Assembly (NCBI RefSeq): GCF_016405985.1
Contig: NZ_JAEFCF010000031.1
Coordinates: forward strand, 1 to 64,000
From: Paracoccus sp. IB05
GTDB taxonomy: Bacteria > Pseudomonadota > Alphaproteobacteria > Rhodobacterales > Rhodobacteraceae
Direction: 5' to 3'
Length of the DNA stretch: 64,000 bases
Below, piece after piece: positions 41,192 through 56,743 of this stretch. Both the position numbers and the translations under genes were made by a program. Every line of letters begins with the position of its first letter. Within the stretch, counting starts at the first letter, position 1. The notes beneath the pieces were generated by a model. It saw nothing but the letters and a program-made list of their open reading frames with translations. It was not told the DNA's origin and ran no database searches.

Positions 41192-42814
41192 TCAGCGCAG
41201 AGAAGGATCGCGCCAGACCTCCTGTCCCCGAAACAGGGTCAGAAGGACGCGGGTGGCAGAAATCTGCGCGGGGGCGCAGCTGAAAATATCCTGATCCGTC
41301 ACGATCAGATCGGCAGAAAAACCGGGAGAGAGCCGGCCGCTATAGCCGTCACGCCAGGAGGCGCGGGCGGCGTTAATCGTATAGCCCGCCACAGATTCGG
41401 TCAGGCTCAGCGCCTGATCGGGCAGGAAGGGCGGGCCGGAATGATCCTGGGCGCGCGCCTGGCGGGTAATGGCGGTTTCGATGATCTCGAACGGGTTCAG
41501 GGTCGAGACCGGCCAGTCCGACGACATCGCGAAACCGGTTCCCAGCTTCACCATATCGCGAAACGCATAGGTCTGCGGCAGGCGCGCGGGCCCGATCATG
41601 TCGAACGCGATATCGGGGATCTTTGCGTCGAATCGCGCCCAGAGCGGCTGAATATTCGCCATTGCGAGCCGCGCGAGGCGGGGGAAATCGGCGGGGGCGA
41701 CCAGTTGCAGATGGGTGATCTGGTGGCAGGCGGGCCAGGGGCCGTTGGCGGCCAGCGCCGCTTCCAGCCCGTCCAGCGCGCGGGCGCAGGCGGCATCGCC
41801 GATCACATGGACATGGATCTGAAAGCGCGCGGCATCCAGCGCGGTCATCAGCGCCAGGGTCTGATCATGGCGGAACATGCAGGGCGCAGTGCCGCCCGCT
41901 CCGTCGGCATAGGGGGCGAGGCAGGCGGCGGTTCGGTTCTCGAACACGCCATCCATGAAAAACTTCGCGGCATTGATATGGAAATCCGGGCCCGGATGGG
42001 CGGTGCGCAGCGCGCTCAGCCGGGCCAGTGCGGTTTCCGGAGTATCGGCCTCGGAGACATGCGCCGCCCCGGCGACGCGCAGGGTGAGGAGGTTTTCGCG
42101 CGCGGCACGGGCATAGATCCGTGCCTCGATCGCGGTGATTTTGGCGTCGATCACGCCGGTGATGCCATGGCGATTGGCATGGGCCTGGCCTGCCATCAGC
42201 CCGGCCAACAGCTGGTCATCGGTGAAACCGGGCAGGCGTGCGAGCGCCCAGGGGATCGCTTCTTCATGCAGCATGCCGGTGGCCTGGCCGGTCGCATCCC
42301 GCAGGATATGGCCATTGGGCGGATCGTTTGTGTCATCGGTGATCCCGGCCATCACCAGCGCGGCAGAGTTGAGACAGGCGGAATGGAAGCTCGAATCGTA
42401 GATCAGCGCCGGGCGGGAACCGGTCAGCGGATCAAGCCAGGTAGTGGTCAGGTTGTGATCGCCGAAAAGCCCGGGCTGCCAGCCGGCACCGACCAACAAG
42501 GGCAGGTCGGGATGAGCTGCGGCATGGCTGCGGATCAGTTGCGCCAGCGTGTCGGGGTCTTCGGCCTCGTAAAGCTGCGCGGCGGTGGCGAGATCGGTGC
42601 CGCCGGAGAGAAGATGGGTATGGGCATCCTGAAACCCGGGCAGGACGAGGCGCCCGCCAAGATCGGTGATCCGTGCTCCGGACTGGGCGAGGGCGGCGAT
42701 GTCATCGCCGCCGACGGCTGCGATAATGCCATCGCGGATCAGGATCGCGCGGGCCTGCGGCAAGGCAGGGTCCATCGTATGGATGCGGCCATTGATCAGC
42801 AGGTGGTCACTCAT
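41192..42814 (-). CDS. Amidohydrolase, YtcJ-like (amidohydrolase 3 family)
   Basis: Metal-dependent hydrolase of 540 residues. The N-terminal small domain starts LLINGRIHTMD. The barrel shows GFQDAHTHLLSGG (metal-binding HxH), ITGVIDAKI, IHVHVIGDAACARALDGL and AMSSDWPVSTLNPFE with the final Asp. The family contains YtcJ-like enzymes that cleave amide or C-N bonds in cytoplasmic substrates; the natural substrate is unknown. It is the last gene of the amine/osmolyte locus, overlapping the cupin gene by 8 bases. ATG 42814 is preferred over an earlier in-frame ATG inside the cupin gene. Confidence 0.9.
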   Translation of the reverse strand: MSDHLLINGRIHTMDPALPQARAILIRDGIIAAVGGDDIAALAQSGARITDLGGRLVLPGFQDAHTHLLSGGTDLATAAQLYEAEDPDTLAQLIRSHAAAHPDLPLLVGAGWQPGLFGDHNLTTTWLDPLTGSRPALIYDSSFHSACLNSAALVMAGITDDTNDPPNGHILRDATGQATGMLHEEAIPWALARLPGFTDDQLLAGLMAGQAHANRHGITGVIDAKITAIEARIYARAARENLLTLRVAGAAHVSEADTPETALARLSALRTAHPGPDFHINAAKFFMDGVFENRTAACLAPYADGAGGTAPCMFRHDQTLALMTALDAARFQIHVHVIGDAACARALDGLEAALAANGPWPACHQITHLQLVAPADFPRLARLAMANIQPLWARFDAKIPDIAFDMIGPARLPQTYAFRDMVKLGTGFAMSSDWPVSTLNPFEIIETAITRQARAQDHSGPPFLPDQALSLTESVAGYTINAARASWRDGYSGRLSPGFSADLIVTDQDIFSCAPAQISATRVLLTLFRGQEVWRDPSLR

Positions 42815-43667
42815 AAAGGCTCCAGTCGCTGGCCGGCAGCACATGGGCGGGCTGGTCGACATCGCGGGTCCAGGCGAAGAGGCTGAGGAAGGGCAGGGCT
42901 CCGGTCAGGGTCGCATGCGGTTTGAGCGCCGGGTTCCAGACCGGCTGCAGCGCGGGGAGCGTGCGAAAGGGCCCATCCGGGGCAAAGCGCCAGCGATGCG
43001 GGCCGGTGAGCGGCAGGTAAAGCTCGGGCGCGGGATGGGCATGATCGCGGTAGAGAATGCCGGGCGCGACGAGGAAGAGGCCAAGGTCGAAATCGCTGGC
43101 CCTCCAGGGCGCGGTCGCGCCGATCAGCGAGCAAAAGGCATGCGAGCGCGTAAAATGAGGCCCGATCTGCGCGGGCGGATAGGCGTCATAGGTGATCCAG
43201 GTCAGATCCCCGGTCGCGGCGGCGATGGCGGCGGCCAGTGTCGGGTCGATGGTTTTCGCGGCCTCCAATGCGGTTTCCATATGGGTTTCGACCACCAGGT
43301 TTGCGCGCCCGGGGCGTGGGTCTGGCTTTTGCAGCAGGGCGGCGGCGAGGAGCGTGCGGGTCTCGGCAATCCCCGGGCCGGAGAGGGCGGCAAGGCAGCG
43401 GTCGGTCTCGGCCAGGAGATGCGCGAGGCGGGCGGCGGCATCGGGCGCGGGCGGGACGGGTGGCGTGAGCCCGCGATCCGCCATGACGCGGAACGGCTCG
43501 ACGGCATCGGCGGTGGCCGCCTCGCGGTAAGCCTCAAGCTGGGCGGTGCTCAGCGCGCCTGATGCGTGGAGCGCCATTGCCGCGCCGTAGCGGCGGCGCC
43601 CGGAGCCGGGCGGGCCGGCGGGTTCGCTCAGCGCAAGCCAGAGCACGCTGGTTGCCATGTCCGTCAT
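42807..43667 (-). CDS. DMSP-lyase-like cupin protein
   Basis: Protein of 286 residues. The C-terminal half is a cupin of the dimethylsulfoniopropionate-lyase family: LYRDHAHPAPELYLPLTG gives metal ligands H209, H211 and E215, and H251 (KPHATLT) completes the set, with Y206 and W245 nearby. The N-terminal half (1-150) is helical. Characterised relatives (DddL/DddQ group) cleave DMSP to acrylate and dimethyl sulfide. Here it sits between a putrescine-type importer and an amidohydrolase, overlapping potI-like and amidohydrolase genes, so its substrate may instead be an amine analogue. The metal set is complete, so it is probably an active enzyme. Confidence 0.75.
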   Translation of the reverse strand: MTDMATSVLWLALSEPAGPPGSGRRRYGAAMALHASGALSTAQLEAYREAATADAVEPFRVMADRGLTPPVPPAPDAAARLAHLLAETDRCLAALSGPGIAETRTLLAAALLQKPDPRPGRANLVVETHMETALEAAKTIDPTLAAAIAAATGDLTWITYDAYPPAQIGPHFTRSHAFCSLIGATAPWRASDFDLGLFLVAPGILYRDHAHPAPELYLPLTGPHRWRFAPDGPFRTLPALQPVWNPALKPHATLTGALPFLSLFAWTRDVDQPAHVLPASDWSLYE

Positions 43668-44503
43668 CCGTTGGCCCTGTATGCGAGCCGCTCTTCGGCG
43701 AGCCGGCGCCTTTCGGCCCGGCTCATCAGCCAGCCGGCAATGGCGACACAGATCCCCACAATCACGACGATCAGCGTGGCGAGCGCGTTGATATCGGGCG
43801 TGACGCCCAGCTTGACCTTGGACCAGATCAGCAAAGGCAGCGTGGTCGATCCCGGCCCCATCACGAAGGTGGTGATCACCACATCATCAAGCGAGATTGT
43901 GAAGGCCAGCAGCCAGCCCGACAGCAGCGCGGGCGAGATCACCGGCAGGGTCACGTCCTTCAACACCTGCCAGGGGCGCGAGCCGAGATCCATCGCGGCC
44001 TCTTCGATCGAGCGGTCCATCTGGATCATCCGCGAATGGACCACGGTGGTGACGAACACCATAGAGAAGGTGATATGCGCCAGCGTGATCGTGGTGAAAC
44101 CGCGCTGCCCGGGCCAGCCGATCCAGTTCGCGAGCAGCGTGAAGAAGATCAGCAGCGAGATGCCGGTGATCACTTCGGGCATGATCAGGGGGGCTGTGAC
44201 CATGCCGGAAAACGCGGTGCGGCCCCGGAATTTGCGAAACCGCGCCAGCGTGATCCCGGCCATGGCGCCAAGCACCGTCGCAACCGAAGCCGAGATCAGC
44301 GCGATCTGCAACGAGAGCCAGAGCGCGGCGCCGACCTGGCGGTTGGAGAAAAGCGAGACATACCATTTGGTCGAGAACCCGCCCCAGACGGTGACAAGCC
44401 GGCTTTCGTTGAAGGAATAGATGATCATCGAGAGGATCGGGATGTAGAAAAAGGCGAACCCAAAGCACATCACGGTAATCAGAAAGACGGGGCGGCGGGT
44501 CAT
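43664..44503 (-). CDS. ABC transporter permease, PotI/PotC type
   Basis: Inner-membrane permease of 279 residues with about six helices. The EAA motif region reads EEAAMDLGSRPWQVLKDVTLPVI, which docks the ATPase. It is the second permease of the importer encoded downstream of the binding protein and ATPase genes, and overlaps the first permease gene and the cupin gene by 4 bases each. The layout binding protein-ATPase-permease-permease matches putrescine potFGHI. Confidence 0.94.
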   Translation of the reverse strand: MTRRPVFLITVMCFGFAFFYIPILSMIIYSFNESRLVTVWGGFSTKWYVSLFSNRQVGAALWLSLQIALISASVATVLGAMAGITLARFRKFRGRTAFSGMVTAPLIMPEVITGISLLIFFTLLANWIGWPGQRGFTTITLAHITFSMVFVTTVVHSRMIQMDRSIEEAAMDLGSRPWQVLKDVTLPVISPALLSGWLLAFTISLDDVVITTFVMGPGSTTLPLLIWSKVKLGVTPDINALATLIVVIVGICVAIAGWLMSRAERRRLAEERLAYRANG

Positions 44504-45420
44504 GGGCGCTCCTCCGCCCGGCCCTCGGCTTTCTGCTGATAGCGCGAATAGAGCATGGTCGGCCCGACCATCAGGATCAACAGCGCCACGGCGACGGTCG
44601 AGGCCATGGGCCAGTCCCTGACCTGCGCGAATTCATCCGAGATGATGCGGCCGATCATCGGCGAAGAGGGATTGCCGACGAGGGCGGGGATCACCAGCTC
44701 GCCTGCCGCCGGGATGAAGACGAGCATGGCGCCCGCGATGATGCCCGGTATCGATTGCGGCAGGGTCACATCGCGGAAGACCTGGAAGGGACGCGATCCG
44801 AGATCCATCGCGGCCTCGTCCAGCACCGGATCGAGCCGTTCGAGATTGGCGTAAAGCGGCAGAATCATGAAGGGCAGGTAGCAATAGACCATGACGAGAA
44901 CCACCGCGAAATTGCTGTTCATCATCGGGATCGAGGTCAGCGCGTAAGATTGCGGGGTGAGGAGATTCCAGATGTCTGTGAGCAGCCCGTTGAACCAGGA
45001 ATTCCGCCCCATCATCCCCATCCAAGCGTAGACGCGCAGCAGGAACGAGGTCCAGAAGGGCAGGATCACCAGCATCAGAAGAATATTGCGCCAGGATTTC
45101 GAAACCCGGGTGAGGCCGAGCGCCATCGGATAGCCGATGATCAGGCAGATCACCGTGGCGACGGCGGCATTCATCAGCGAGGTGATAAAGGCGCGGATAT
45201 AGAGGGTCTCGGTGAAAAGCCGCGCATAGCCTTCGAAATTGAGGATCGGGTTCGCGCCACCATAGCCAAAGGGCGGCGCGGTGGGGGTGCGGGTGGCGAG
45301 GCTCATCGCCACGACGATCAGGAAGGGGATCAGGAAGAAGACGATCAGCCAGAGATAGGGGATGCCGATGATCAGATCGCGCCAGCCGCGGCGATGGAAC
45401 CAGGAGGCGAGGGATTTCAT
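44500..45420 (-). CDS. ABC transporter permease, PotH/PotB type
   Basis: Inner-membrane permease of 306 residues with an N-terminal helix (LIIGIPYLWLIVFFLIPFLIV) and about five more. The EAA loop reads DEAAMDLGSRPFQVFRDVTLPQSI. The helix pairs with the second permease. A 102-base gap holding a dispersed repeat separates it from the ATPase gene. The ribosome site GAGG lies 5 bases upstream of ATG 45420. Confidence 0.94.
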   Translation of the reverse strand: MKSLASWFHRRGWRDLIIGIPYLWLIVFFLIPFLIVVAMSLATRTPTAPPFGYGGANPILNFEGYARLFTETLYIRAFITSLMNAAVATVICLIIGYPMALGLTRVSKSWRNILLMLVILPFWTSFLLRVYAWMGMMGRNSWFNGLLTDIWNLLTPQSYALTSIPMMNSNFAVVLVMVYCYLPFMILPLYANLERLDPVLDEAAMDLGSRPFQVFRDVTLPQSIPGIIAGAMLVFIPAAGELVIPALVGNPSSPMIGRIISDEFAQVRDWPMASTVAVALLILMVGPTMLYSRYQQKAEGRAEERP

Positions 45421-45437
45421 GGCTGGCCTCGTGCTTT

Positions 45438-45502
45438 GCGGCGCGCGGCGGGGGGCTGCCTGCCCCCCGCACCCCCCGGGAGTATTTGTGTCAGGAGGAA
45501 GG
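45438..45502 (+). repeat. Dispersed intergenic repeat, copy 6, inside the transporter operon
   Basis: A GGGGGGC/GCCCCCC hairpin is followed by GCACCCCCCGGGAGTATTTG and then TGTCAGGAGGAAGG. This is the same layout as copies 1 and 3. Unlike the others, it interrupts an operon, between the ATPase and first permease genes. Confidence 0.7.
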
Positions 45503-45522
45503 GGGCGGCTTTTCGCATGGCA

Positions 45523-46638
45523 TCAATCCGTCAGGAGGATGGCTGAGGCGGGCTCGAAGGAGAGCCAGACGCGGTCGTCCCAGTCGGCGGGGCGGCCGGA
45601 TTCAGAGGCGCGCCGCGCATTGACCGTATGGACCGAGATCAGATCGCCCCCCGGCAGGATCACACGGTAGAGGCTGTCCTTGCCGAAATAGGCGAGGTCT
45701 TTCACCTGACCTTCAACCACATTGACGGCATCGGGGCAGGTTTTCGAGATGGAGACTTTCTCGGGGCGCAGGGCTACGGTGACGGTCTGGCCCTCGGTCA
45801 GGCCAGGGAGGGATCGGGCCGCAAAGGTGCCGCCCATGGCGGGGATGTCGATCTCGGTCAGATCGCCGGTCAGGCGGATGACGCGGGCCGGATAGGTCGA
45901 GATCGCGCCGATAAAGCCGGCAACAAAGCGGGAATTGGGATATTCATAGATCTGGTTCGCCGGGCCGACCTGTTTGACCTCGCCCTTGTCCATCACCGCG
46001 ATACGGTCGGCGAGGGTCATCGCCTCTTCCTGGTCATGGGTGACCACGACAAAAGTGACGCCGGTATTCTGCTGGATCGACATCAGTTCGAACTGGGTAT
46101 GTTCGCGCAGTTTCTTGTCGAGCGCCGCGAGCGGCTCGTCGAGCAAAAGCACCTTGGGCTGCCGCGCCAGCGCGCGGGCCAGGGCCACGCGCTGGCGTTG
46201 CCCGCCGGAAATCTGATGCGGTTTCCTTTTGGCAAAAGGCGTCAGCTGTACCAGCGCCAGCATCTCTTCGACCCGGGCGGCGCGCCGGGCGGCGGTCATC
46301 TTTTCGTGCTTCAGCCCATAGGCGATGTTCTTTTCGACGCTCATATGCGGAAAGATCGCGTAGCTCTGGAACATCATATGGACCGGGCGATCCCAGGGCG
46401 GCGTATCGGCCATATCCTGGCCGTCGATAAAAATCCGTCCCGATGTCGGGGTCTCGAAGCCCGCCAGCATCCGCAAAAGCGTGGTCTTGCCGCAGCCGGA
46501 GCCGCCGAGCAGGGCGAAGATCTCGCCCTTGCCAATGGTCAGACTGACGTCACGCACCGCCTCGAACTGGCCAAAGCGTTTGGAGACGCCCTCGATACGG
46601 ATGAAAGGGGCATTTTCCGGCAGGACAGGCTCTGACAT
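45523..46638 (-). CDS. ABC transporter ATPase, PotG/PotA type
   Basis: ATPase subunit of 371 residues. Walker A LLGGSGCGKTT (about 40-50), signature ISGGQRQR, Walker B VLLLDEP and the switch TVVTH-type motif (FVVVTHDQEEAM) are intact. A C-terminal TOBE domain (about 240-371) follows. It resembles PotG, energising putrescine-type uptake. It starts 13 bases after the binding-protein gene, with GAGGC upstream. Confidence 0.95.
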   Translation of the reverse strand: MSEPVLPENAPFIRIEGVSKRFGQFEAVRDVSLTIGKGEIFALLGGSGCGKTTLLRMLAGFETPTSGRIFIDGQDMADTPPWDRPVHMMFQSYAIFPHMSVEKNIAYGLKHEKMTAARRAARVEEMLALVQLTPFAKRKPHQISGGQRQRVALARALARQPKVLLLDEPLAALDKKLREHTQFELMSIQQNTGVTFVVVTHDQEEAMTLADRIAVMDKGEVKQVGPANQIYEYPNSRFVAGFIGAISTYPARVIRLTGDLTEIDIPAMGGTFAARSLPGLTEGQTVTVALRPEKVSISKTCPDAVNVVEGQVKDLAYFGKDSLYRVILPGGDLISVHTVNARRASESGRPADWDDRVWLSFEPASAILLTD

Positions 46639-46651
46639 GACGGGCCTCGCC

Positions 46652-47770: not shown

Positions 47771-47812
47771 CTTAGTCTCCCTGGCGTTTTATTGTCTGAT
47801 TTTTAAGAAAGC

Positions 47813-49042
47813 CTAAGCCCGCCCTGCCTTTGCACAAAGCAAATCCTTGTTGAGGGCGCGCATTTCACCCTCTGCGGGTGCGGCGCTGCGGGACATCACC
47901 GGAAGCAGGCGGCGCAGCTGATCATGATGGCGGCGCAACCCGTATTCGAGGTCCGAGAGGTGGAAGCCTTCGAAATTTTCAGACCGCATTGATTCGTTTG
48001 ACCAGATCGACAGCTGCTGATCTTCGGCAGAGGTGTCGCGGTCGATCCGCTGCGCGAGATAGCGGGCGGCGCGGGTCTGGCGGTCTTCATCGGCCAGGCG
48101 ATACTGGCGGCCGGTCAGGAGTGTTCTGCCCGGTGACTGCGGCAGGTCATGGTAGAATTGTGCGCTTTCAGGCGTGAAGGCGATCACCGTATTGGGAAAG
48201 AGGCCGTAATAGGCCCAGTTCCGTTGCAGATGCGGCGGCAGATCTGCACGTTGCGGCGAATGCCTGACATAGTTCTTCACCGACCAGCTCCGGCCCGGGC
48301 GGTCGCCGTAAAAGCCGTAACTGACATGCAGGCCGCCGGGCAGGTAAAGGTCGCGGTAATCGCGGCCGTAAAGATCCTGCAAAGACGGATGGGCGAGGGC
48401 GACGTGATAGCCCTCATTGTCCACATCGCGCACCGATTTCCAGTTCACCGCAAGCTCCGCCGACCAGCCCGAGACATCGAGCGGCATCAGCCTCTCGGCC
48501 CCCCAGGCGGTGAAATCGGGCGCATAGGGGGCAAGGAGGTCACGCACCGAAGGCTGAGGTCCGGGGCGAAAGCGCAGGAAGAGGAAGCCTGCGAAAATCT
48601 CCAGCTCCAGCGGTTTCAGCCCGAAGGCGGATTTGTCCAGGCCATCGCCGAAGGTTTCGGGGCGCGAGACGCCGCGAAGCGTGCCGTCAAGGTTATAGAC
48701 CCAGCCATGGAAGGGGCAGACCAGCGCGCCCCGGCATTTGCCCTGCGCACCATCCACCACCCGCGCGCCGCGATGGCGGCAGAGGTTCATGAAGGCACGG
48801 ACCTCGCCATCCTGCCCGCGGATGATCACCGCGCGCTCGCCCAGAAGGTCAAAGGACAGCCAGTCGCCCGGTGCCGGGATGTCGGAGATATGGCCCGCAA
48901 CCTGCCAGTGGGTCAGAAAAATCGCTTCACGTTCCAGATCGAACAGGGTCTGGGAATGATAGGTCCAGGCCGGCAGCCCGCGCCGGTCCCAGCCTGTCGG
49001 GATCGGGTCAGAACGCAGCGGAGTATCGGGAAATATGGTCAT
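47813..49042 (-). CDS. Rieske non-heme iron oxygenase, second alpha subunit
   Basis: Ring-hydroxylating-type oxygenase alpha subunit of 409 residues. The Rieske cluster ligands are C88, H90, C109 and H112 (CRHRG, CPFHGW). The catalytic iron is bound by H213 and H218 (EGYHVALAHPSL) and probably an Asp near 360 (DTSAEDQQL). The residue 3 before H213 is Glu (E210) where most ring-hydroxylating enzymes have Asp; the carnitine/betaine demethylase group also has Glu. The start at 49042 has GGGAGGAA 6 bases upstream and overlaps the upstream Rieske gene by 4 bases. Confidence 0.9.
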   Translation of the reverse strand: MTIFPDTPLRSDPIPTGWDRRGLPAWTYHSQTLFDLEREAIFLTHWQVAGHISDIPAPGDWLSFDLLGERAVIIRGQDGEVRAFMNLCRHRGARVVDGAQGKCRGALVCPFHGWVYNLDGTLRGVSRPETFGDGLDKSAFGLKPLELEIFAGFLFLRFRPGPQPSVRDLLAPYAPDFTAWGAERLMPLDVSGWSAELAVNWKSVRDVDNEGYHVALAHPSLQDLYGRDYRDLYLPGGLHVSYGFYGDRPGRSWSVKNYVRHSPQRADLPPHLQRNWAYYGLFPNTVIAFTPESAQFYHDLPQSPGRTLLTGRQYRLADEDRQTRAARYLAQRIDRDTSAEDQQLSIWSNESMRSENFEGFHLSDLEYGLRRHHDQLRRLLPVMSRSAAPAEGEMRALNKDLLCAKAGRA

Positions 49043-50208
49043 GCTGTTCCTCCCTCTGATCCGGCCGCCATCCCGGCCAGTATCCATTGGTGGAAACGGT
49101 GGATCTCATATTCTTCGGGCATCAGCGTGCCGCGCGTGAACGATGGCGAGGCAATGCCGCGCTGGTTCATCTCGGACGCGGCGCCGTCCTGCTCCATCAC
49201 CAGTTTCGCGAAAGCCGCGATGGCAACGGCGTCAAAACCGGGCTGTGCCAGTGTTTCGGGCGGGAAATACCACTCCGCCACCAGCCTTGTGCGGTTGGGC
49301 GAGACCGGCTCCAGCCGCACGGCGCGGACATAATCGACATGCGCGACGATATAGGTCGAGGGCCAGAGTGTGACGAAGGTATAGCCGCGCGCGCGTTCCT
49401 CAGGTGTCAGCCCGGGAAAGACCGGCCCACAGGGCGCGCCCGAAGGTGTCCAGCTTTCGGCCCCTGCTTTGAGGTTCGGGCTGACGGGTCGATCCGGCGT
49501 CCAGTCCCGCGCCTCGTTGGCGCCCATGATGCCCTGGCGGTAGACCGGCACCATGTCGCACAGCTCGGGATGGATGCCGGGGCAGTGGAGGCATTCGGAA
49601 TAATTCTCCCAGAACGCTTTCCAGTTGCAGTCGAGGTCCGAGACCCAGCGATGCCCGGTGACAAGCCCCGCCATTGGCCAGTTGTCATAGGTTTCCAGCG
49701 GCATATCGGCAGTCAGCGGGCCGGGATCACACGCAAGGTTCAGAAAGATGAACCCGTTCCAGATGCGCGAGGCGACCGGCTTCAGCGCGTGGTCGTCCTT
49801 GCGGAAATCAGCGGTTGGCACGGCATGGGCGGTCGAGACCAGCCGCCCGTCTTTGGCGGCAAAAGCCCAGGCGTGATAGGGGCAGGTGATCAGCTTGCCG
49901 AAGGACCGCTCTTCTCCCTCGGGACACAGTTCAGACCCGCGATGGCGGCAGCTGTTGTGAAAGGCCGAGACGCTGCCGTCAGTCGCCCGCACCAGCAGAA
50001 CCGGGGCCTCTCCCACCCTGGTTCCGCGCAGGGTGCCGGCGGGCAGATCGGCCAGCCGCCCGACCATCACCCATTCGCGCGCGAAAATCGTCTCCATTTC
50101 CCGGGCGAACCAGTCGGGGGCGATCCAGGCCGCACGGGGAAGCGTTTCGGGGCAATGGCTGAGGCGGGGGCTGTCGGGATGGGGGCTTTGGGCGATGTCA
50201 TGCGGCAT
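49039..50208 (-). CDS. Rieske non-heme iron oxygenase, CntA/GbcA-like alpha subunit
   Basis: Oxygenase alpha subunit of 389 residues. Rieske ligands are C87, H89, C109 and H112 (CRHRG, CPYHAW). The catalytic iron ligands are H208, H213 and D341, with E205 in the bridging position (ENYSECLHCPGIH). This matches the carnitine and glycine-betaine oxygenase group, which oxidises trimethylammonium compounds. The start shares one base with the GcvT-like stop (TGATG), with GGGGAGG upstream. No reductase partner gene lies nearby. Confidence 0.91.
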   Translation of the reverse strand: MPHDIAQSPHPDSPRLSHCPETLPRAAWIAPDWFAREMETIFAREWVMVGRLADLPAGTLRGTRVGEAPVLLVRATDGSVSAFHNSCRHRGSELCPEGEERSFGKLITCPYHAWAFAAKDGRLVSTAHAVPTADFRKDDHALKPVASRIWNGFIFLNLACDPGPLTADMPLETYDNWPMAGLVTGHRWVSDLDCNWKAFWENYSECLHCPGIHPELCDMVPVYRQGIMGANEARDWTPDRPVSPNLKAGAESWTPSGAPCGPVFPGLTPEERARGYTFVTLWPSTYIVAHVDYVRAVRLEPVSPNRTRLVAEWYFPPETLAQPGFDAVAIAAFAKLVMEQDGAASEMNQRGIASPSFTRGTLMPEEYEIHRFHQWILAGMAAGSEGGTA

Positions 50209-51422
50209 CAGAACCTCCCCGGTGGGGTGGCACGGCGGCGTTCGGGGGCGAAAAACGGCCGGGCGGTTTTGGTGACAGGCAGCATAAGCTTTTGATATTG
50301 CAGCTCGCGCAGCGCGTAGATCTCGACCCAGAGATGGTCGCAACTGTCGTAGCGGGCCTCGACCTGGGCAATGGCGATGTTGCGTTTCAGTGTCGGAGAC
50401 CAGCAGGCGGCGGTGATGAACCCCGCCTCGCGGCGCTTGTCGAAGTAGAGGATCGCGCCCTCGGCACTGACATTGCCGGGGATGTCGAGCCCGACCAGAG
50501 CCCATTGCGATGATTTTCCGTCGCGCTCGGCCATCAGGGCGCGGCGCCCGGTGAAATGCCCTTTATCCCAGGCGATCATCCAGTCGAGGCCGATTTCAAA
50601 CGGTGACCGCGCCCGGTCTTCGCGCACCGCGTGCTGGACAGGGACGAAATCCATGCCGGTGGTGATGAACCCGGCCTCGAGCCGCGCCAGCATCACCGCC
50701 TCGGACCCGACCGGCATCAGCCCGTAAAGCGCGCCCGCCTGCATCAGGTGATCCCAGAGCGGCAGGGCAAGATCGGGGCTGATCCAGAGCTCATAACCCA
50801 GATCGCCGGTAAATCCGGTGCGCGAAATCATCACCTCGCCGGTGTCGAACGGGCAGGTCGTCATACGGAAGGGTTTCAGGGCCTGGATGTCGAACCCGGC
50901 CTGAGCCAGCACGGTCGCCGAAACCGGCCCCTGCAGCGCCAGCGCCGCGAGGTCTTCGGTCTCGTCCCGGAGCCGTATATCCAGCCCCCAGGCGCTGTCG
51001 AGCAGCCAGGGCAGGTGGCGTTCCTGACAGCACAGCCGGAAATCATCAGGCCCAAGGCGAAAGACGGTGCCATCATCCATCACCTTGCCCTGATCGTCAC
51101 ACCAGGCGGTGTAATGCACCTGACCCACCGCCAGCCGCCCCACATCGCGCAGCGTCAGGCGGTTGAGATAGGCCACCGCATCCGGCCCGGTGATGCGGTA
51201 TTTCACCATGGGCGAGATGTCATACAGCGTCGCCGCATTGCGGATCGCCGTATGTTCCATCGTGCTGTCGCCGAAACAGGTGGCGGTCATGTAACCGGCC
51301 CAGGGGGCCCAGCCCTGCAGGCGATTCGCGGCTTCGGTGCGCGGATGGAACGGGGTCTGCGCCAGCGGGGTGGTGAAATGGGTCAGCGCCGGCGGCGCAT
51401 TAAGATGGGGGGCTGCGCTCAT
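50208..51422 (-). CDS. GcvT/DmdA-type aminomethyltransferase
   Basis: Folate-dependent methyl-transfer protein of 404 residues of the GcvT superfamily (glycine cleavage T protein, DMSP demethylase, dimethylglycine enzymes). Family marks are MVKYRITGPDAVAYLNRLTLRD, VHYTAWCDDQGKVMDDGTVFRL and TGFTGDLGYELWISPD. Such enzymes pass a methyl or one-carbon unit to tetrahydrofolate. It overlaps the flavoprotein gene upstream by 4 bases and the first Rieske gene by 1. That context suggests capture of methyl groups from the substrate. ATG 51422 has GGAGG upstream. Confidence 0.9.
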   Translation of the reverse strand: MSAAPHLNAPPALTHFTTPLAQTPFHPRTEAANRLQGWAPWAGYMTATCFGDSTMEHTAIRNAATLYDISPMVKYRITGPDAVAYLNRLTLRDVGRLAVGQVHYTAWCDDQGKVMDDGTVFRLGPDDFRLCCQERHLPWLLDSAWGLDIRLRDETEDLAALALQGPVSATVLAQAGFDIQALKPFRMTTCPFDTGEVMISRTGFTGDLGYELWISPDLALPLWDHLMQAGALYGLMPVGSEAVMLARLEAGFITTGMDFVPVQHAVREDRARSPFEIGLDWMIAWDKGHFTGRRALMAERDGKSSQWALVGLDIPGNVSAEGAILYFDKRREAGFITAACWSPTLKRNIAIAQVEARYDSCDHLWVEIYALRELQYQKLMLPVTKTARPFFAPERRRATPPGRF

Positions 51423-52948
51423 GCTTTCGCCTCCAGCACAGCATCGGCGGCGTTCCGGCCGGCGGCGCCCGACATGCCGCCCGGATGGGTTCCGGCGCCG
51501 GTGAGCCAAAGCCCTTTCAGCGGCGTTGCATAGCGCGACAGCGGCGCGATCGGGCGGTTGAAGAGCATCTGTTCGACCGCCAGCTCGCCATGATGCCAGT
51601 TGCCACCCGCCATGCCGAACTGTCGTTCGATATCATAGGGCATCAGGATCCCGGCGCGGGTGATCAGCGCGCTGATCCCTGGCGCCGCCTCTTCCAGCCG
51701 CGCGAGGCAGGCTTTGAGCATCGCTTCTCGCGCCGCGTCTTCGCCCGCCTTCGGCGCATGGGGGGCGAATTGCACATTGGCCGACAGAAGATGCGGGCCA
51801 GTGCCGCCGGAAAACGCCGTGGGGATCACAATCTCCATCACCGGACGGTCAGGCACCTCGCCATATTTGACCGGGTTGAAGGCGGTTTCGACCTCATGTT
51901 CATCTGCGGCCAGCAGCAGGCGGGAGCGCAGATCGGCACCCCGAAAATCCGGGCGGGCGGAAAGCGCGAGATGCAGTTTTGCGGTGCCGCCCCGCGATTT
52001 CTGATGGCGCAAAGCGGTGACAAGGCCGGTGTCGAAATGCTCTGTGCCAGCGAGGGACAGGATCGTTGCCTTTGGCCCGATTGCCGAGATCACCACCGGC
52101 GCGACAAGGGTTTCGCCGCTGTGAAGGATCACGCCGGTGATGCGGTCATCGGCGATGCTGATCCGGCTGACGCGGGAATTGCTGCGCAGCGAAACACCTG
52201 CTGCAGTCGCAGCATTTGTCATGGCCTGCGCCAGCGCGGGCATCCCGCCTTTGGGCAGCCCGAGTGCTCCCTTACGTCCCGCGATTTCTCCGGCCAGCCG
52301 ATCCAGGAGTAAAATCAGTGTATTGGGAGAGCGCGGTCCCGCCCAGGCGCCAAGCACGGCATCGAAACACAGGGCGGCGCGCAGCCGGGGATCTGTCAGT
52401 TCATCCTGAGCCACATCATGGGCGTTGATCAGGATCACCCGCAGCAATTCGCGAAAATCCTTCGTGCCAAGCGCGCGGATACCGATCAGGTTCTTCGCAA
52501 GCCTGGCCCAGGAATTGCCGCCCGCCTGCAGGCGTGGCGGCGCCATGCGGCGGAAGGGCTCCAGCGCGGCAGCGAAGGAGAGGAGGCGCTGGTAAAGCGC
52601 CTTCCAGGCCGCCGCGTCTGGGCCCTCGGTCAGTGGCCCCCGGATCACCAGATTGCCGTCGCGCCCGATCACCGTGGTCGGAATATCTGTGGCCTCCCAT
52701 GTAAGGCCGTGGCGCGACAGATCCATCGCGGCCTCGACCCGCGGGTCGATCTGCCAGACAAGATGCGCCAGCGAAGGCGTCAGTCCGGGCGCCAGATCCG
52801 GGAGCGCACGGATGCCGCCACCGGGCGTGGCTTCGGCCTCGATCAGCGTCACTTTGCGGCCTTTGGACGCCAGGCGATGGGCGCAGGCCAGACCATTCGG
52901 CCCGGCTCCGATCACGATCACATCACGGTCAAAGGACGGGCCAGGCAT
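51419..52948 (-). CDS. Phytoene-dehydrogenase-like FAD oxidoreductase, second copy
   Basis: Flavoprotein of 509 residues with the FAD loop VIGAGPNGLACAHRLASKGRKV (1-35) and the C-terminal FAD motif LWLTGAGTHPGGMSG. It is a paralogue of the neighbouring 543-residue protein, with the same ending pattern (FNRPIAPLSRYATPLKGLWL). The superfamily includes carotenoid desaturases and PYROXD2-like proteins, but not all have a known substrate. It overlaps the upstream copy by 20 bases and the methyltransferase gene by 4. Confidence 0.88.
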   Translation of the reverse strand: MPGPSFDRDVIVIGAGPNGLACAHRLASKGRKVTLIEAEATPGGGIRALPDLAPGLTPSLAHLVWQIDPRVEAAMDLSRHGLTWEATDIPTTVIGRDGNLVIRGPLTEGPDAAAWKALYQRLLSFAAALEPFRRMAPPRLQAGGNSWARLAKNLIGIRALGTKDFRELLRVILINAHDVAQDELTDPRLRAALCFDAVLGAWAGPRSPNTLILLLDRLAGEIAGRKGALGLPKGGMPALAQAMTNAATAAGVSLRSNSRVSRISIADDRITGVILHSGETLVAPVVISAIGPKATILSLAGTEHFDTGLVTALRHQKSRGGTAKLHLALSARPDFRGADLRSRLLLAADEHEVETAFNPVKYGEVPDRPVMEIVIPTAFSGGTGPHLLSANVQFAPHAPKAGEDAAREAMLKACLARLEEAAPGISALITRAGILMPYDIERQFGMAGGNWHHGELAVEQMLFNRPIAPLSRYATPLKGLWLTGAGTHPGGMSGAAGRNAADAVLEAKA

Positions 52949-54560
52949 CGCTCATATCCTTTGGCGAGAGTTTCGCATCACGCAGGATTTCCGACGCCGC
53001 ATTGCGGCCCGGCGCGCCCATCACGCCACCGCCGGGATGGGTCGAGGAGCCGCAGATCCAGAGATCACGAACGGGGGTTCGGTAATTGGCATATCTCGGC
53101 ACCGGTCGGTTGAAGAGCAGCTGGTCAAAGGTCAGCTCGCCCTGGAAGATATTGCCCTCGGTCAGCCCGACTTCGGCCTCGAGCTCGCGCGGGGTGCGGA
53201 TCTCGACATGGCGGATGAGGTTTCTGAAACCGGGTGCGTAACGCTCGATCTGGTTCAGACAGGCCTCGCCGAAAGCATCGCGATCGGCATCGGTCCAGTC
53301 GCGGCCCCCCTCTGCCAGGTCTCCGATCTTTGGCGGCGCATATTGCACGAAGCACGACATGAAATGCTTGCCCGGCGGCGTCATGGTCGGGTCGATCATC
53401 GTGGGGATCATCACATCCTGGAACGGGTCGCGCGAGAAATGCCCGGCCTTCCAGTCGTCATAGGCGCGTTCCATCTTTTCGATGGAATCGGTGAAATGCA
53501 GATCCCCTTTGATCGCGGGTGACCCCTCGGGAAGCGCGGCGAATTTCGGGGCGGCGTCCAGTGCGATGTTCAGCTTGCCCGAGGAGCCGCGCGTTTTGAA
53601 CTTCTTTACCGAAGCCACGTAATCGCCGGGAAGCTCGCGCTCCTCGACATGTTTCAGCATGGTGCGTTTGACATCCATGTTCGAGATCACGCGCTTTGCC
53701 CGGATCTCATCGCCGTTTTCCAGCACGACGCCGATAGACCGCCCGTTCTTCACCAGCACCCGGGCGACCGGTGCACCGGTGCGGATCTCACCGCCCGAGG
53801 CCTGCAAGGACGAAGACAGCGCTTTGGTGATCGACCCCATGCCGCCGCGCGCGAACCCCCAGGCACCGATATTGCCATCCACATCGCCCATATAGTGATG
53901 CAAGAGCACATAGGCGGACCCAGGCGACATCGGACCGAGCGCGGTGCCGATGATCGCGGAAACCGCGAGATAGGCCTTGATCACAGGGCTTTCAAAATAG
54001 TGGTCGAGGTAGTCCGAGATCGACATGGTCCAGAAGCGGACCATGTCTGCGATCTGGCGTTCCGACAGGCCCGAGACCTGTTTGCCGATGAACAGCAGCT
54101 CTCCGATGTCGCGCGGGCGGAACCGCGCCGGATCGGGCGGGGTGCGCAAGAGCATCGGGCGGATGAAACGGCAATAGCGCAGCACGTCGCGGGAATAGAC
54201 GTCATAGGCCTCGGCATCGCGGGCCGAGTGGCGGGCGAATTCGCGGCGGTTCGCATCATGGTCGCGATACATGCCGAGGTAGCCGCCGCCCTCCTGGAAC
54301 ACCGCGCCACCCTCATAGGGCAGGATCTGCAACCCGTGGCGCGGGAGTTCAAGGTCGCGCATGATCTCGGGTCGGAAGAGGGATGCGACATAGGAGCAGT
54401 TGGAATAGGTGAAGCCGGGGGTCAGTTCCCGCGAGACGGCGGCCCCGCCAACCCAGTCGTTTTTCTCGATGACCAGCACCTTCATCCCGGCGCGGGCGAG
54501 GTAGCAGGCGGTGACCAGCCCGTTATGCCCGGCACCTAGGATCAGGGCGTCATATGTCAT
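52929..54560 (-). CDS. Phytoene-dehydrogenase-like FAD oxidoreductase, first copy
   Basis: Flavoprotein of 543 residues with an FAD loop LILGAGHNGLVTACYLARAGMKV at the N-terminus and the motif LWICGSSTHPGGGVMGAPGR near the C-terminus. It shares the family architecture with the next gene, although the middle parts differ. The pair may form a heteromer that oxidises a C-N or C-C bond, an inference from tandem arrangement. It overlaps the aminotransferase gene by 4 bases. No clear membrane anchor is seen. Confidence 0.88.
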   Translation of the reverse strand: MTYDALILGAGHNGLVTACYLARAGMKVLVIEKNDWVGGAAVSRELTPGFTYSNCSYVASLFRPEIMRDLELPRHGLQILPYEGGAVFQEGGGYLGMYRDHDANRREFARHSARDAEAYDVYSRDVLRYCRFIRPMLLRTPPDPARFRPRDIGELLFIGKQVSGLSERQIADMVRFWTMSISDYLDHYFESPVIKAYLAVSAIIGTALGPMSPGSAYVLLHHYMGDVDGNIGAWGFARGGMGSITKALSSSLQASGGEIRTGAPVARVLVKNGRSIGVVLENGDEIRAKRVISNMDVKRTMLKHVEERELPGDYVASVKKFKTRGSSGKLNIALDAAPKFAALPEGSPAIKGDLHFTDSIEKMERAYDDWKAGHFSRDPFQDVMIPTMIDPTMTPPGKHFMSCFVQYAPPKIGDLAEGGRDWTDADRDAFGEACLNQIERYAPGFRNLIRHVEIRTPRELEAEVGLTEGNIFQGELTFDQLLFNRPVPRYANYRTPVRDLWICGSSTHPGGGVMGAPGRNAASEILRDAKLSPKDMSDAWPVL

Positions 54561-55915
54561 TCGGCGGCGTCCAGCTTGCCTTCCGCCTGGTCACGCAGCG
54601 TCAGGTCAACGGCTGTCTCTACCGCCCGGATGGTGTCGGTGTAGCAGGTCTCGTCCAGGCCATGCGCCTCACACATGAACCAGGGCTCGCGCGAGTCGGG
54701 TTCCACGATGATGTTCAGATCATGCAGGTACCAGGCCATGCGGTCGTAGAAGGAGTAATCCGAGGTCTTCCAGGCGCGGTAATTGTCCGGTGGCTCGGGC
54801 GCGAAGAAGATGCCGAACATCGCGGGATGACCCGAGAAGCTATGCGTGATGCCGCGCGCCGAGAGGATTTCGGAAATGCCGGCCTTCAGCCGGGTGCCGT
54901 AGTTCGCCAGCGTCTCAAGCGCAGGGGTCTCATCGAGGATGCGCAGCGTTTCCTCGGCGGCGGCGAGGCTGACGGAATGGGCGGTATAGGTGCCGCCATG
55001 CGACGCGCCGCCATAGCGGAAGGTGCGCATGATATCCTCGCGCCCCGCGACCAGCGAGATCGGATAGCCATTGGCGACCGCTTTCGCGAAGGTGGTGATA
55101 TCGGGGGTAACGCCCAGGATGCCCTGGACACCACCCTTGCCGACGCGGAAGCCGGTTTTCACCTCGTCGATGATCAGCAACACGCCATATTGGTCGCAGA
55201 GTTTGCGGGCCAGCTGGACGTAGTCTTTCCGGGCCGAGATCCCGCAGCAATTCCCTTGAATCGGTTCGATCAGCATCGCGGCCATATCGTCGCCATGGCG
55301 GCGGAAGGTGTCTTCCAGCCGCTGCATATCGTTCATCGGCACCAGATGGGCGAGTTGTTTGACGGTGTTCGGGATGCCCTGACCATAGGGCACGATCTCG
55401 GGGTCGCTGTTCGATTTCGCGTCCCATTCATCCATATTCGCCATCCACATGGCGGCATCGAACAACCCGTGATAGCCGCCCTCGACCAGCAGATAGCTTT
55501 CGCGGCCCGTCCAGGCGCGGGCGAGACGCAGCGCGGACATCACGGCTTCGGTGCCGGAGTTCGAAAACCGCACCAGTTCTGCCGCCGGAACCATTTTCGA
55601 GATGCGTTCGGCAACGGCCAGCTCGCGCTCGGTCGAGAGGGCGAAGACGCCGCCGACCTCCATCCCCCGCTTTGCGGCGGCATCGACCCGGTCGTCTGCA
55701 TAGCCGAGGATCGCCGGACCGTAGCCCAGCCGGTAATCAACGTAATTATTGCCGTCGATATCCCAGGTCCGGCCGCCCTTGCCGTGGTCGACATAGATCG
55801 TTCGCTCGTCACCCCAGTATCGGAAGGTCGAGGCCACCCCCAGCGGCAGCTTCTTCAGCGCCTTTTGGAAATGGGCATTGGACTTTTCCAGCTTGCGGTG
55901 CGGCGCGGTGGTCAT
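54557..55915 (-). CDS. Class III PLP aminotransferase, first gene of the amine locus
   Basis: PLP enzyme of 452 residues similar to glutamate-1-semialdehyde-type and omega-aminotransferases. Marks are VRFSNSGTEAVMSALRLAR (phosphate binding), IIDEVKTGFR (Asp pairing with the PLP ring), and TFAKAVANGYP with the expected Schiff-base Lys. It would move an amino group from a terminal amine or amino acid. It heads the catabolic operon; its start lies 130 bases from the divergent TetR-family gene. AGGAACAGG precedes ATG 55915. Confidence 0.9.
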   Translation of the reverse strand: MTTAPHRKLEKSNAHFQKALKKLPLGVASTFRYWGDERTIYVDHGKGGRTWDIDGNNYVDYRLGYGPAILGYADDRVDAAAKRGMEVGGVFALSTERELAVAERISKMVPAAELVRFSNSGTEAVMSALRLARAWTGRESYLLVEGGYHGLFDAAMWMANMDEWDAKSNSDPEIVPYGQGIPNTVKQLAHLVPMNDMQRLEDTFRRHGDDMAAMLIEPIQGNCCGISARKDYVQLARKLCDQYGVLLIIDEVKTGFRVGKGGVQGILGVTPDITTFAKAVANGYPISLVAGREDIMRTFRYGGASHGGTYTAHSVSLAAAEETLRILDETPALETLANYGTRLKAGISEILSARGITHSFSGHPAMFGIFFAPEPPDNYRAWKTSDYSFYDRMAWYLHDLNIIVEPDSREPWFMCEAHGLDETCYTDTIRAVETAVDLTLRDQAEGKLDAAE

Positions 55916-55947
55916 GGCGTCAACCTGTTCCTGTTGCGGCTCTCCAA

Positions 55948-55977
55948 ACTGTCGAATTATTTTGACTGAACTGTCAA
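55948..55977. promoter_or_regulatory. Candidate TetR-family operator
   Basis: TTGACTGAACTGTCAA (55962-55977) is an inverted repeat with TTGAC/GTCAA arms. A further half-site ACTGTCGA lies at 55948-55955. The site sits between the divergent aminotransferase and TetR-family genes, 33 bases from the operon's first codon, a natural place for repression of both. Confidence 0.55.
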
Positions 55978-55987
55978 TCAGAATCTG

Positions 55988-56012
55988 AAACCGCTTTTAA
56001 CGCAGCGGTTTT
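55988..56012 (+). promoter_or_regulatory. Terminator-like hairpin in the TetR leader
   Basis: Arms AAACCGCT and AGCGGTTT enclose a 7-base loop and are followed by further T residues, about 33 bases before the TetR-family start codon. It may be an attenuator, a terminator, or another operator. Confidence 0.4.
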
Positions 56013-56044
56013 TCAGGCAAGACTGGCTGCGAACGGAGACGCAG

Positions 56045-56743
56045 ATGGCAGCAATCGAGCAGACCGATACCCCAGAATCCGGGACCCCTGATTCCCAGCC
56101 CCGCAAGATGCCGCGCGATGCCCGGCGCGTGCAGCTGATCGAGGCGACGATCGAGACCATCGCACGTTTTGGCTATTCCAGGACGACGATGTCCGAGGTG
56201 GCACGGATGGCCGGCCTTTCGCATGGGCTGGTGAATTTCCACTTCCAGACCAAGGAAAACCTGCTCTCGGAAACGCTGCTCTATCTGTCCGGGGAATACC
56301 GGCAGAACTGGACCGGCGCGGTCGAGGCAGCGGGGGCAGGGGCGGCGGAACAGCTTTATGCCATGCTGGCGGCTGATTTCCGGCCCGAGATCTGCACGCC
56401 GGGGCGGCTGGCGGCCTGGTGTTCGTTCTGGGGCGAGACCTCGGGGAGGCCGCTTTACCAGGAGAAATGCGGCTCAAACGACGAGCAGTATAACCAGTAT
56501 CTGGAAACGCTCTGCCGCCGGATGAATGAGGATCACGGCTATACGGTGGACCCGACCCGCACGGCGCGGGTGCTCCGGGTCACGACCGAGGGCGTCTGGC
56601 TCGATATGATGACGATGCAGTCACCTTATGATGCAAGCGAAGCGCTGGCGACGCTGATGGTCTGCGTCACCGCGTTTTTCCCGCGCCATTTCAGCGTGGA
56701 GGGTCTGGTCGCGGAAGGTCTGGTCAGGGCAGTTCCGCAATGA
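56045..56743 (+). CDS. TetR-family regulator, BetI-like
   Basis: Repressor-type regulator of 232 residues. The helix-turn-helix is RVQLIEATIETIARFGYSRTTMSEVARMAGLSHGLVNFHFQTKENLL (about 28-75), very similar in layout to BetI, which controls choline and glycine-betaine genes. The ligand-binding domain contains FWGETSGRPLYQEKCGSND. It is divergent from the amine locus and probably controls it through the palindrome between them. Its end overlaps the convergent pyrF gene by 20 bases. Confidence 0.9.
   Translation: MAAIEQTDTPESGTPDSQPRKMPRDARRVQLIEATIETIARFGYSRTTMSEVARMAGLSHGLVNFHFQTKENLLSETLLYLSGEYRQNWTGAVEAAGAGAAEQLYAMLAADFRPEICTPGRLAAWCSFWGETSGRPLYQEKCGSNDEQYNQYLETLCRRMNEDHGYTVDPTRTARVLRVTTEGVWLDMMTMQSPYDASEALATLMVCVTAFFPRHFSVEGLVAEGLVRAVPQ

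Follow-up and report, generated by a model that had tools for sequence, protein, structure and literature searches.

What is a tightly packed block of twelve genes in Paracoccus sp. IB05 for, when it places two Rieske oxygenases beside two flavoproteins, a polyamine-type importer and a cupin resembling dimethylsulfoniopropionate (DMSP) lyases? The block lies in a stretch of 64,000 nucleotides (contig NZ_JAEFCF010000031.1, positions 1 to 64,000; hereafter the window) of a 5.29 Mb genome, and runs on the minus strand from 55915 down to 41192, opposite a TetR-type regulator gene at 56045-56743. From promoter-proximal to distal it encodes an aminotransferase (AT), two flavin adenine dinucleotide (FAD) oxidoreductases (FP1 and FP2), a GcvT-like protein, the Rieske oxygenases RO1 and RO2, the importer components PotF, PotG, PotH and PotI, the cupin CUP and the metal hydrolase AHY (Table 1). 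An earlier note on this DNA had described twelve minus-strand genes facing a TetR gene and joined mostly by overlaps of 1-20 bases; both points hold, with overlaps of that size at eight of the eleven junctions and gaps of 42, 13 and 102 bases at the other three. Aggregated, the data point towards an inducible operon that breaks down a cationic amine with N-methyl groups. The likeliest substrate would be a methylated di- or polyamine with a primary amine retained, a reading to which we assign a probability of about one half.

The twelve-gene block is a real conserved unit. A genome scan with RO1 gave 225 encoding stretches, the best 80 of which were kept, and 42 of these loci encode RO1 at an identity of at least 50%. 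Gene order and strand are identical in 41 of these 42; at the exception, L056, nothing but RO1 and, on its other side, a weak match to CUP was seen. Gene presence was counted at the 29 loci with at least 6.6 kb of left flank and at least 8 kb of right flank, using tblastn thresholds that we set per gene, such that a gene scored as absent may have diverged. RO2 and CUP are each found at 28 of these well-flanked loci, each Pot gene at 27, the regulator at 24, FP1, FP2 and GcvT each at 18, and AT and AHY each at 17; all twelve genes are present at 12, and at 11 together with the regulator. Where an order or family is given, the carriers are mostly Rhodobacterales, with others such as Aestuariivirga, Hyphomicrobiaceae and Bradyrhizobiaceae among the best 80 stretches. 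One operon copy is plasmid-borne, and the nearest named locus, that of Pseudogemmobacter bohemicus, encodes operon proteins 77-96% identical to those of the window.

The partners also keep company across 248 genomes of the family (the window's own included and, by the tallies, one per genus). At thresholds of E <= 1e-60 for RO1 (20 genomes), 1e-130 for FP1 (25) and 1e-90 for RO2 (31, letting in homologues down to 44% identity), RO1 and RO2 occur together in 19 genomes against 2.5 expected (19 of the 20 with RO1), RO1 and FP1 in 17 against 2.0 (17 of the 20), and FP1 and RO2 in 20 against 3.1, with Fisher p values of 9e-13 to 2e-19 in a test that ignores phylogeny. RO1 is present in all ten CUP genomes, a set comprising 10 of the 12 genomes found (E below 1e-60); the two dropped match the cupin part only and are without RO1. 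Several pairs are unlinked: in G141 a distance of 1.4 Mb separates RO1 from FP1 and RO2, in G024 and G148 RO1 and FP1 sit on separate contigs, and the same is true of RO1 and RO2 in G004. Since the gene order recurs and the partners co-occur far above expectation, the linkage is not a matter of chance. Co-conservation in other genomes, on which the earlier note had beforehand staked its proposal, was thus found both as gene order and as co-occurrence.

The 129-base gap between the TetR and AT genes contains the palindrome TTGACTGAACTGTCAA at 55962-55977, and TTGAC-N6-GTCA is present in 37 of 43 equivalent promoter gaps, or 34 of 40 distinct ones, the window included, against 0.04 expected from shuffles; the remaining six of the 43 hold a variant with one or two bases changed. 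The palindrome is kept whichever gene leads the operon, be it AT, FP1 or RO1. There are eight matches to TTGACNNNNNNGTCAA in the window's genome versus two for the reversed control, and among the eight only the one in the operon gap has the TTGACANNNCAGTCA form, which is found in 33 of the 40 distinct gaps. The TetR protein would repress the operon via this palindrome. Its earlier BetI-like label stands as far as the TetR family goes, but not at the level of BetI itself, the NCBIfam equivalog being matched with 89 of the 201 bits of the cut-off.

Ten of the thirteen proteins were scanned against model libraries, whereas PotG, PotH and PotI were named from sequence and from annotated Fuscovulum ytuae orthologues. 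All ten match Pfam models above cut-off; nine match NCBIfam models, with no shown match above cut-off, and CUP matches none of the latter. Residue counts given below refer to aligned rows drawn from 54 chosen loci, each row at least 38% identical and covering at least 60% of the length, with one locus (L034/L131) counted twice for RO1, RO2, PotF and GcvT.

In RO1, both Rieske ligand pairs (CxH...CxxH), the two iron-binding histidines and Asp341 are kept in 52 of 52 rows, and so are the bridging Glu205 and the Cys206/Cys209 pair; RO1 hence carries both residue sets of group V, the Rieske/2-His-1-Asp iron site and the bridging Glu with Cys-X-X-Cys. Among solved chains, 3vca and 4qup come closest to it; 4qup is labelled monoxygenase/demethylase, and we take both to be the stachydrine demethylase Stc2. 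RO1 has the same Rieske and iron ligands, bridging Glu and cysteine pair as Stc2 and GbcA, which act on quaternary ammonium nitrogens. It differs from GbcA in reaching 151 of the 670 bits needed, and from both in its setting, with two Rieske genes here beside a polyamine-type importer, two CrtO-like flavoproteins and a cupin. In excerpted text, the Cys-X-X-Cys pair is described as confined to certain members of group V, enzymes that oxidize quaternary ammonium compounds (PMC10952381). RO1 would thus be expected to act on a quaternary ammonium nitrogen. RO2 keeps the Rieske ligands, the bridging Glu210 and both iron-binding histidines in 50 of 50 rows, with its Asp iron ligand not located. Its nearest solved chain is the carnitine monooxygenase CntA, with which it has the bridging Glu in common; unlike CntA, RO2 is without the cysteine pair and its operon without a reductase gene.

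The importer also bears on the substrate. The nearest solved chains to the binding protein are the polyamine transport protein 3ttm/3ttk and PotF, and the NCBIfam PotF equivalog is matched below cut-off, with 335 of 636 bits. For PotF, a partial text of PMC8666671 describes a proximal pocket of S38, D39 and D247 for the primary amine, an aromatic box of W37, W244 and F276, and a distal pocket of S85, S87, A182, E185, D278 and L348; the F276W exchange is given there as raising spermidine binding about threefold and as found in a third of 250 sequences. In 50 PotF-type rows (including the window's own and two repeats, leaving 47 distinct besides the window) no change is seen at W37, D39, W244 or D278, and 49 rows have D247; position 185 holds Asp and position 276 Trp throughout, such that the polyamine-binding set (D39/D247, E185/D278, W37/W244/F276) is present in 49-50 of 50 rows, with E185D and F276W. 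The window's protein accordingly has the acidic and aromatic pocket residues of PotFGHI and SpuDEFGH, from which it differs in Asp at E185, Trp at F276 and Ser at A182, and in sitting in a putative demethylation operon. As judged from these residues, the pocket is consistent with a ligand carrying a primary amine together with another cationic nitrogen, sharpening the methylated-polyamine option of the earlier note, and because of this pocket that option is favored over betaine, DMSP and other osmolytes.

A route for the released methyl groups is suggested by GcvT, whose nearest solved chain is the trimethylamine N-oxide (TMAO) demethylase 9q59, matched over the C-terminal (folate) half. Its NCBIfam scores are all below cut-off, namely 263 of 1100 bits for the TMAO demethylase equivalog (again the C-terminal half only), 210 for GcvT and 123 of 410 for the DMSP demethylase DmdA; the former GcvT/DmdA-like label is corrected in that the protein is nearer to TMAO demethylase and GcvT than to DmdA. 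The folate-binding domain and the acidic VxDD motif are present, the latter as VMDD with D116 and D117 in 32 of 32 rows. The Asp of this motif is catalytic in GcvT/tetrahydrofolate-dependent one-carbon acceptors. In TMAO demethylase, as in dimethylglycine oxidase, a catalytic domain is fused to a folate-binding GcvT domain; by likeness to the C-terminal part of the former, GcvT may trap formaldehyde on tetrahydrofolate, but here it is a separate protein that adjoins CrtO-like flavoproteins. The glycines of the dinucleotide motif are kept in 28 of 29 rows of FP1 and 30 of 31 of FP2, the remaining row being a gap in each case. AT keeps its presumed pyridoxal-phosphate lysine, Lys278, and Asp250 in 26 of 26 rows. 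Identity of AT with GntE, the guanitoxin transaminase acting on a cyclic guanidine, was rejected at 436 of the 525 bits of the equivalog cut-off.

At the distal end, CUP has the score (63.7 bits for PF16867, cut-off 27), the fold and the metal and Tyr residues of a DMSP lyase cupin: the best fold matches of its structure model (mean predicted local distance difference test, pLDDT, of 96; built from 29 sequences) are DddQ structures, and each residue of HxHx3ExY...H is present in 37 or 38 of 38 rows. In fold and site it resembles DddQ and DddK, from which it differs by an extra N-terminal domain, found as a stand-alone protein elsewhere beside RO2 or GcvT homologues, and by an operon without DMSP genes. 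Since a small protein of 81 residues (L111:16383-16628), without Pfam match, is homologous to the CUP N-terminus (38% over 60 residues; window 43482-43661) and takes CUP's place in L125, CUP looks like a fusion of a small domain and a cupin. The small protein or a homologue of it neighbours RO2 or GcvT homologues, or stands where CUP would be, in L111, L112, L125, L172, L178, L180 and L181. AHY keeps H81, H83, K300, D304, H350, H352, H384 and D449 in 28 of 28 rows.

The protein families, their intact catalytic residues, the operon, its palindrome and its co-conservation are evident from sequence. In the scheme that we infer, as regards substrate, order of steps and every activity, PotFGHI would import the methylated amine, and RO1, with a reductase encoded elsewhere, would oxidatively remove a methyl from the quaternary nitrogen. 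RO2 would perform a second mono-oxygenation of the amine and FP1 and FP2 would oxidize the remaining N-methyl groups, with GcvT trapping the released one-carbon unit on tetrahydrofolate; AT would then transaminate the freed primary amine. CUP and AHY may act on the carbon chain by elimination and hydrolysis, the least certain part. The best residue evidence stands behind the roles of PotF, RO1 and GcvT, whereas we infer those of RO2, FP1, FP2, CUP and AHY. We favor a methylated amine because the conserved operon, the unlinked co-occurrence, the RO1 signature, the match of GcvT to TMAO demethylase and the PotF pocket agree on it, and likewise because alternative loci add MttB-family methyltransferases, a flavoprotein resembling histamine and trimethylamine dehydrogenases, further flavoproteins and, near the FP1 homologue of L163, a class III alcohol (formaldehyde) dehydrogenase. 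The earlier proposal of a catabolic unit for a methylated amine or related osmolyte is therefore retained in part: what is supported is a co-conserved unit acting on a cationic methylated amine and demethylating it by way of Rieske enzymes and folate. DMSP and zwitterionic osmolytes are poorer fits, and the betaine branch is likewise less favored.

A number of observations weigh against this reading. FP1, FP2 and GcvT are missing at 11 of the 29 well-flanked loci and AT at 12; because of these absences the four genes need not sit at the locus, though FP1 can lie elsewhere in the genome. RO1 occurs without FP1 in G004, G033 and G077 (the last having RO1 and RO2, with no FP1 above threshold) and without RO2 in G148, FP1 without RO1 in eight genomes and RO2 without RO1 in twelve. 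Gly211 and Val214 occupy both cysteine places of RO2 in 50 of 50 rows. The operon is without a gene for a Rieske reductase or an aldehyde dehydrogenase, and no search for a reductase elsewhere was made. In the PotF pocket the polar S38, S85 and S87 are variable and Ser takes the place of A182, and F276W is weak evidence because about one PotF sequence in three has it. What CUP and AHY do is guesswork. Finally, an architecture with FP1, FP2 and GcvT, often RO2 and sometimes RO1, uses a different binding protein. In 21 rows of the latter (one repeat included, aligned at about 25% identity) W37, Y40, W244, W276, Y314 and D185 are kept, but D39 is replaced by Gly (one Ala), D247 by Thr or Ser and D278 by Cys. 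Such a pocket would suit a ligand without a primary amine; as the three acids are lost, either the primary amine is not needed in this architecture or its substrate differs, and the loss is the main evidence suggesting that the architectures do not all share one substrate. The earlier claim of one single pathway is weakened by the absences and by the use of different binding proteins and aminotransferases in other architectures.

The alternative that survives best, albeit clearly behind a methylated di- or polyamine and on the whole unlikely, is an amino-acid betaine such as trimethyllysine, gamma-butyrobetaine, 5-aminovalerate betaine or beta-alanine betaine, demethylated to an omega-amino acid that AT transaminates. 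It would account for RO1 and RO2 being nearest to demethylase, carnitine and glycine-betaine enzymes, and for the alternative binding protein, which keeps the aromatic box and loses the acids as for a quaternary ammonium ligand. Acyl-CoA ligase genes lie near FP1 homologues in Shinella sumterensis (FP1 at 40%; annotated) and in L155 and L162-L164 (read from sequence). Moreover, human PYROXD2 is presumably a relative of FP1. PYROXD2 is associated with methyllysines in a partial text of PMC9730628. The window's own binding protein, however, keeps all the polyamine acids, and its operon lacks a CoA ligase, a carnitine dehydrogenase and a betaine transporter.

Within the methylated-amine reading, a bolder version sees a full pathway for N-methylated polyamines, for instance those from diatom silica, with the cupin turned into a carbon-nitrogen lyase whose leaving group is an amine rather than dimethyl sulfide; we regard this as rather improbable. 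The long-chain polyamines of diatom frustules are N-methylated. In an excerpt of PMC6356823, a paper in which the word methylated could not be found, long-chain polyamines are named as the main polyamines of frustules.

Slightly less probable still is the degradation of ordinary, unmethylated polyamines, with the Rieske enzymes hydroxylating or cleaving C-N bonds and GcvT recovering one-carbon waste. The pocket is typical of polyamine binders, RO2-homologue loci carry PotFGHI, a flavoprotein and in some cases an aminotransferase, and a potFGHI mutant of R. pomeroyi is reported, in the available portion of PMC10130141, to grow less on cadaverine, putrescine and spermidine; yet such a route leaves no place for the quaternary-ammonium signature of RO1, for GcvT, or for the MttB and other methyltransferase genes beside some loci. 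We give poor odds to a larger quaternary amine, alkaloid or surfactant (such as an amidopropyl betaine) whose amide AHY would open before the amine part is demethylated: AHY is an amidohydrolase-family enzyme and two loci (L038 and L049) suggest a sludge or reactor source, but AHY is missing at 12 of the 29 well-flanked loci, and the divergence and wide spread of the unit suggest an age beyond that of industrial surfactants. DMSP or another sulfonium osmolyte, with CUP as a DMSP lyase, is very improbable, even though CUP shares its fold with DddQ and has the metal and Tyr residues, given the low DmdA score of GcvT (123 of 410 bits), the polyamine-type importer, the lack of acrylate genes in the operon and at least one carrier from a pond (L044).

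Four further architectures were recognized. The first (a) is reduced to the regulator, RO1, RO2, PotFGHI and usually CUP, with or without AHY. The second (b) combines FP1-FP2-GcvT with a different aminotransferase (PRK07036 model above cut-off in both copies tested) and another ABC importer, on plasmids of Shinella, Rhizobium and Parasedimentitalea and in many of 20 further stretches; often, not always, it includes an RO2 homologue, the histamine/trimethylamine-dehydrogenase-like flavoprotein (an identity tested for the Parasedimentitalea copy) and an S-adenosylmethionine (SAM) methyltransferase. Of this flavoprotein the window's genome has only weaker homologues, the best 44-46% identical and split between two frames. 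In the third (c), an RO2 homologue is followed by a homologue of the 81-residue protein and a flavoprotein, with PotFGHI (L172, L178, L180 and L181). In the fourth (d), PotFGHI is absent and an MttB-family methyltransferase stands beside the unit in L059, L060 and L119/L168 (L060:3188-4726, L059:3-731 and L168:10052-11503, adjoining RO1/RO2). Alternative loci carry further flavoproteins, one of them L-pipecolate-oxidase-like below its cut-off, and the alcohol dehydrogenase of L163, read from sequence, is near a distant FP1 homologue (44-46%). In L155-L160, from other alphaproteobacterial families, homologues of AT/FP1/FP2/GcvT or of FP1/FP2/GcvT occur without recognized Rieske or importer genes in the fetched stretches, a smaller module.

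The window's palindrome was also sought at 27 alternative-architecture loci, with four matches (L153, L169, L172 and L181), each within a coding gene. By eye, another palindrome, TTTGAGCGCTCAAA or close variants, is seen in 9 of the 12 alternative-architecture regulator gaps displayed, and is likely the operator of that architecture's own TetR. It precedes FP1 in L113, L123, L167, L170, L172, L174, L175, L176 and L185.

A SAM-dependent methyltransferase forms a thirteenth gene at the operon 3' end in 11 of the mapped loci (L033, L044, L051, L053, L066, where it is split between two frames, L067, L109, L120, L121, L122 and L125), and the window is without it. The copies scanned (L109 and its relatives in L119 and L127) resemble arsenite and sarcosine-dimethylglycine methyltransferases, below all shown cut-offs. 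As to the flanks, the window has PyrF after its regulator, but PyrF is in the fetched stretch of only 3 of the 42 RO1 loci (L029, L030 and L064) and of L132, and the CpaF-like gene has a single match (34% identical, in L114, annotated there as a VirB11 transfer ATPase), many fetched stretches being too short to reach either; as they are seldom present at relatives' loci, both were treated as unrelated to the operon. Directly downstream of the latter, at 37315-40879, CpaF-like ATPase, CpaE-like and CpaB-like genes were read from sequence and are probably a tight-adherence pilus locus.

Table 1. Features of the operon region, with starts placed downstream of the longest-frame starts for GcvT, RO1, RO2 and AHY (the AHY start may be 42814, not 42862)
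Feature	Position	Strand	Basis
AT: class-III aminotransferase, GSA-aminomutase/GntE type, 452 aa	54557..55915	-	Aminotran_3, 207 bits
FP1: CrtI/CrtO-like FAD oxidoreductase, 543 aa, predicted amine oxidase/dehydrogenase	52929..54560	-	library scans
FP2: FAD oxidoreductase paralogous to FP1, 509 aa	51419..52948	-	library scans
GcvT-like folate-binding protein, 404 aa, predicted formaldehyde/methylene acceptor	50208..51422	-	GCV_T, 195 bits
RO1: Rieske oxygenase, group-V E-C-x-H-C signature, 389 aa	49039..50208	-	library scan, conserved residues
RO2: second Rieske oxygenase, 409 aa, bridging Glu, without cysteine pair	47813..49042	-	library scan
PotF-like periplasmic binding protein, 372 aa	46652..47770	-	solved-chain matches, pocket residues
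PotG-like ABC ATPase, 371 aa	45523..46638	-	sequence; orthologue annotated ABC transporter ATP-binding protein
PotH-like permease, 306 aa	44500..45420	-	sequence, annotated orthologue
PotI-like permease, 279 aa	43664..44503	-	sequence, annotated orthologue
CUP: small N-terminal helical domain fused to DddQ-like metal cupin (apparent fusion), 286 aa	42807..43667	-	PF16867, 63.7 bits
AHY: Amidohydro_3 metal hydrolase, 540 aa	41192..42814	-	269 bits
BetI-like TetR regulator, 232 aa	56045..56743	+	TetR_N, TetR_C_6
Predicted operator, palindrome TTGACTGAACTGTCAA	55962..55977		recurs in homologous promoter regions

Bacteria that demethylate glycine betaine, carnitine and stachydrine are known. Among the open-access papers listed, a coverage outside of which most subscription papers and bioRxiv preprints fall, no title or opening of an abstract describes the present gene set, nor was a conserved unit that joins an importer to demethylation found there for other methylated cationic amines; the cobalamin route of glycine betaine demethylation, as outlined in a partial text of PMC12478193, uses a different gene set. 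The chemistry of each enzyme class is known, and it is the gene combination, the link to an importer and the cupin that appear new. If our reading is correct, it would at once give a substrate to two groups of Rieske enzymes, to CrtO-like amine oxidoreductases, to a DMSP-lyase-like cupin and to a small unnamed domain, and would provide genomic markers for the turnover of an organic nitrogen pool.

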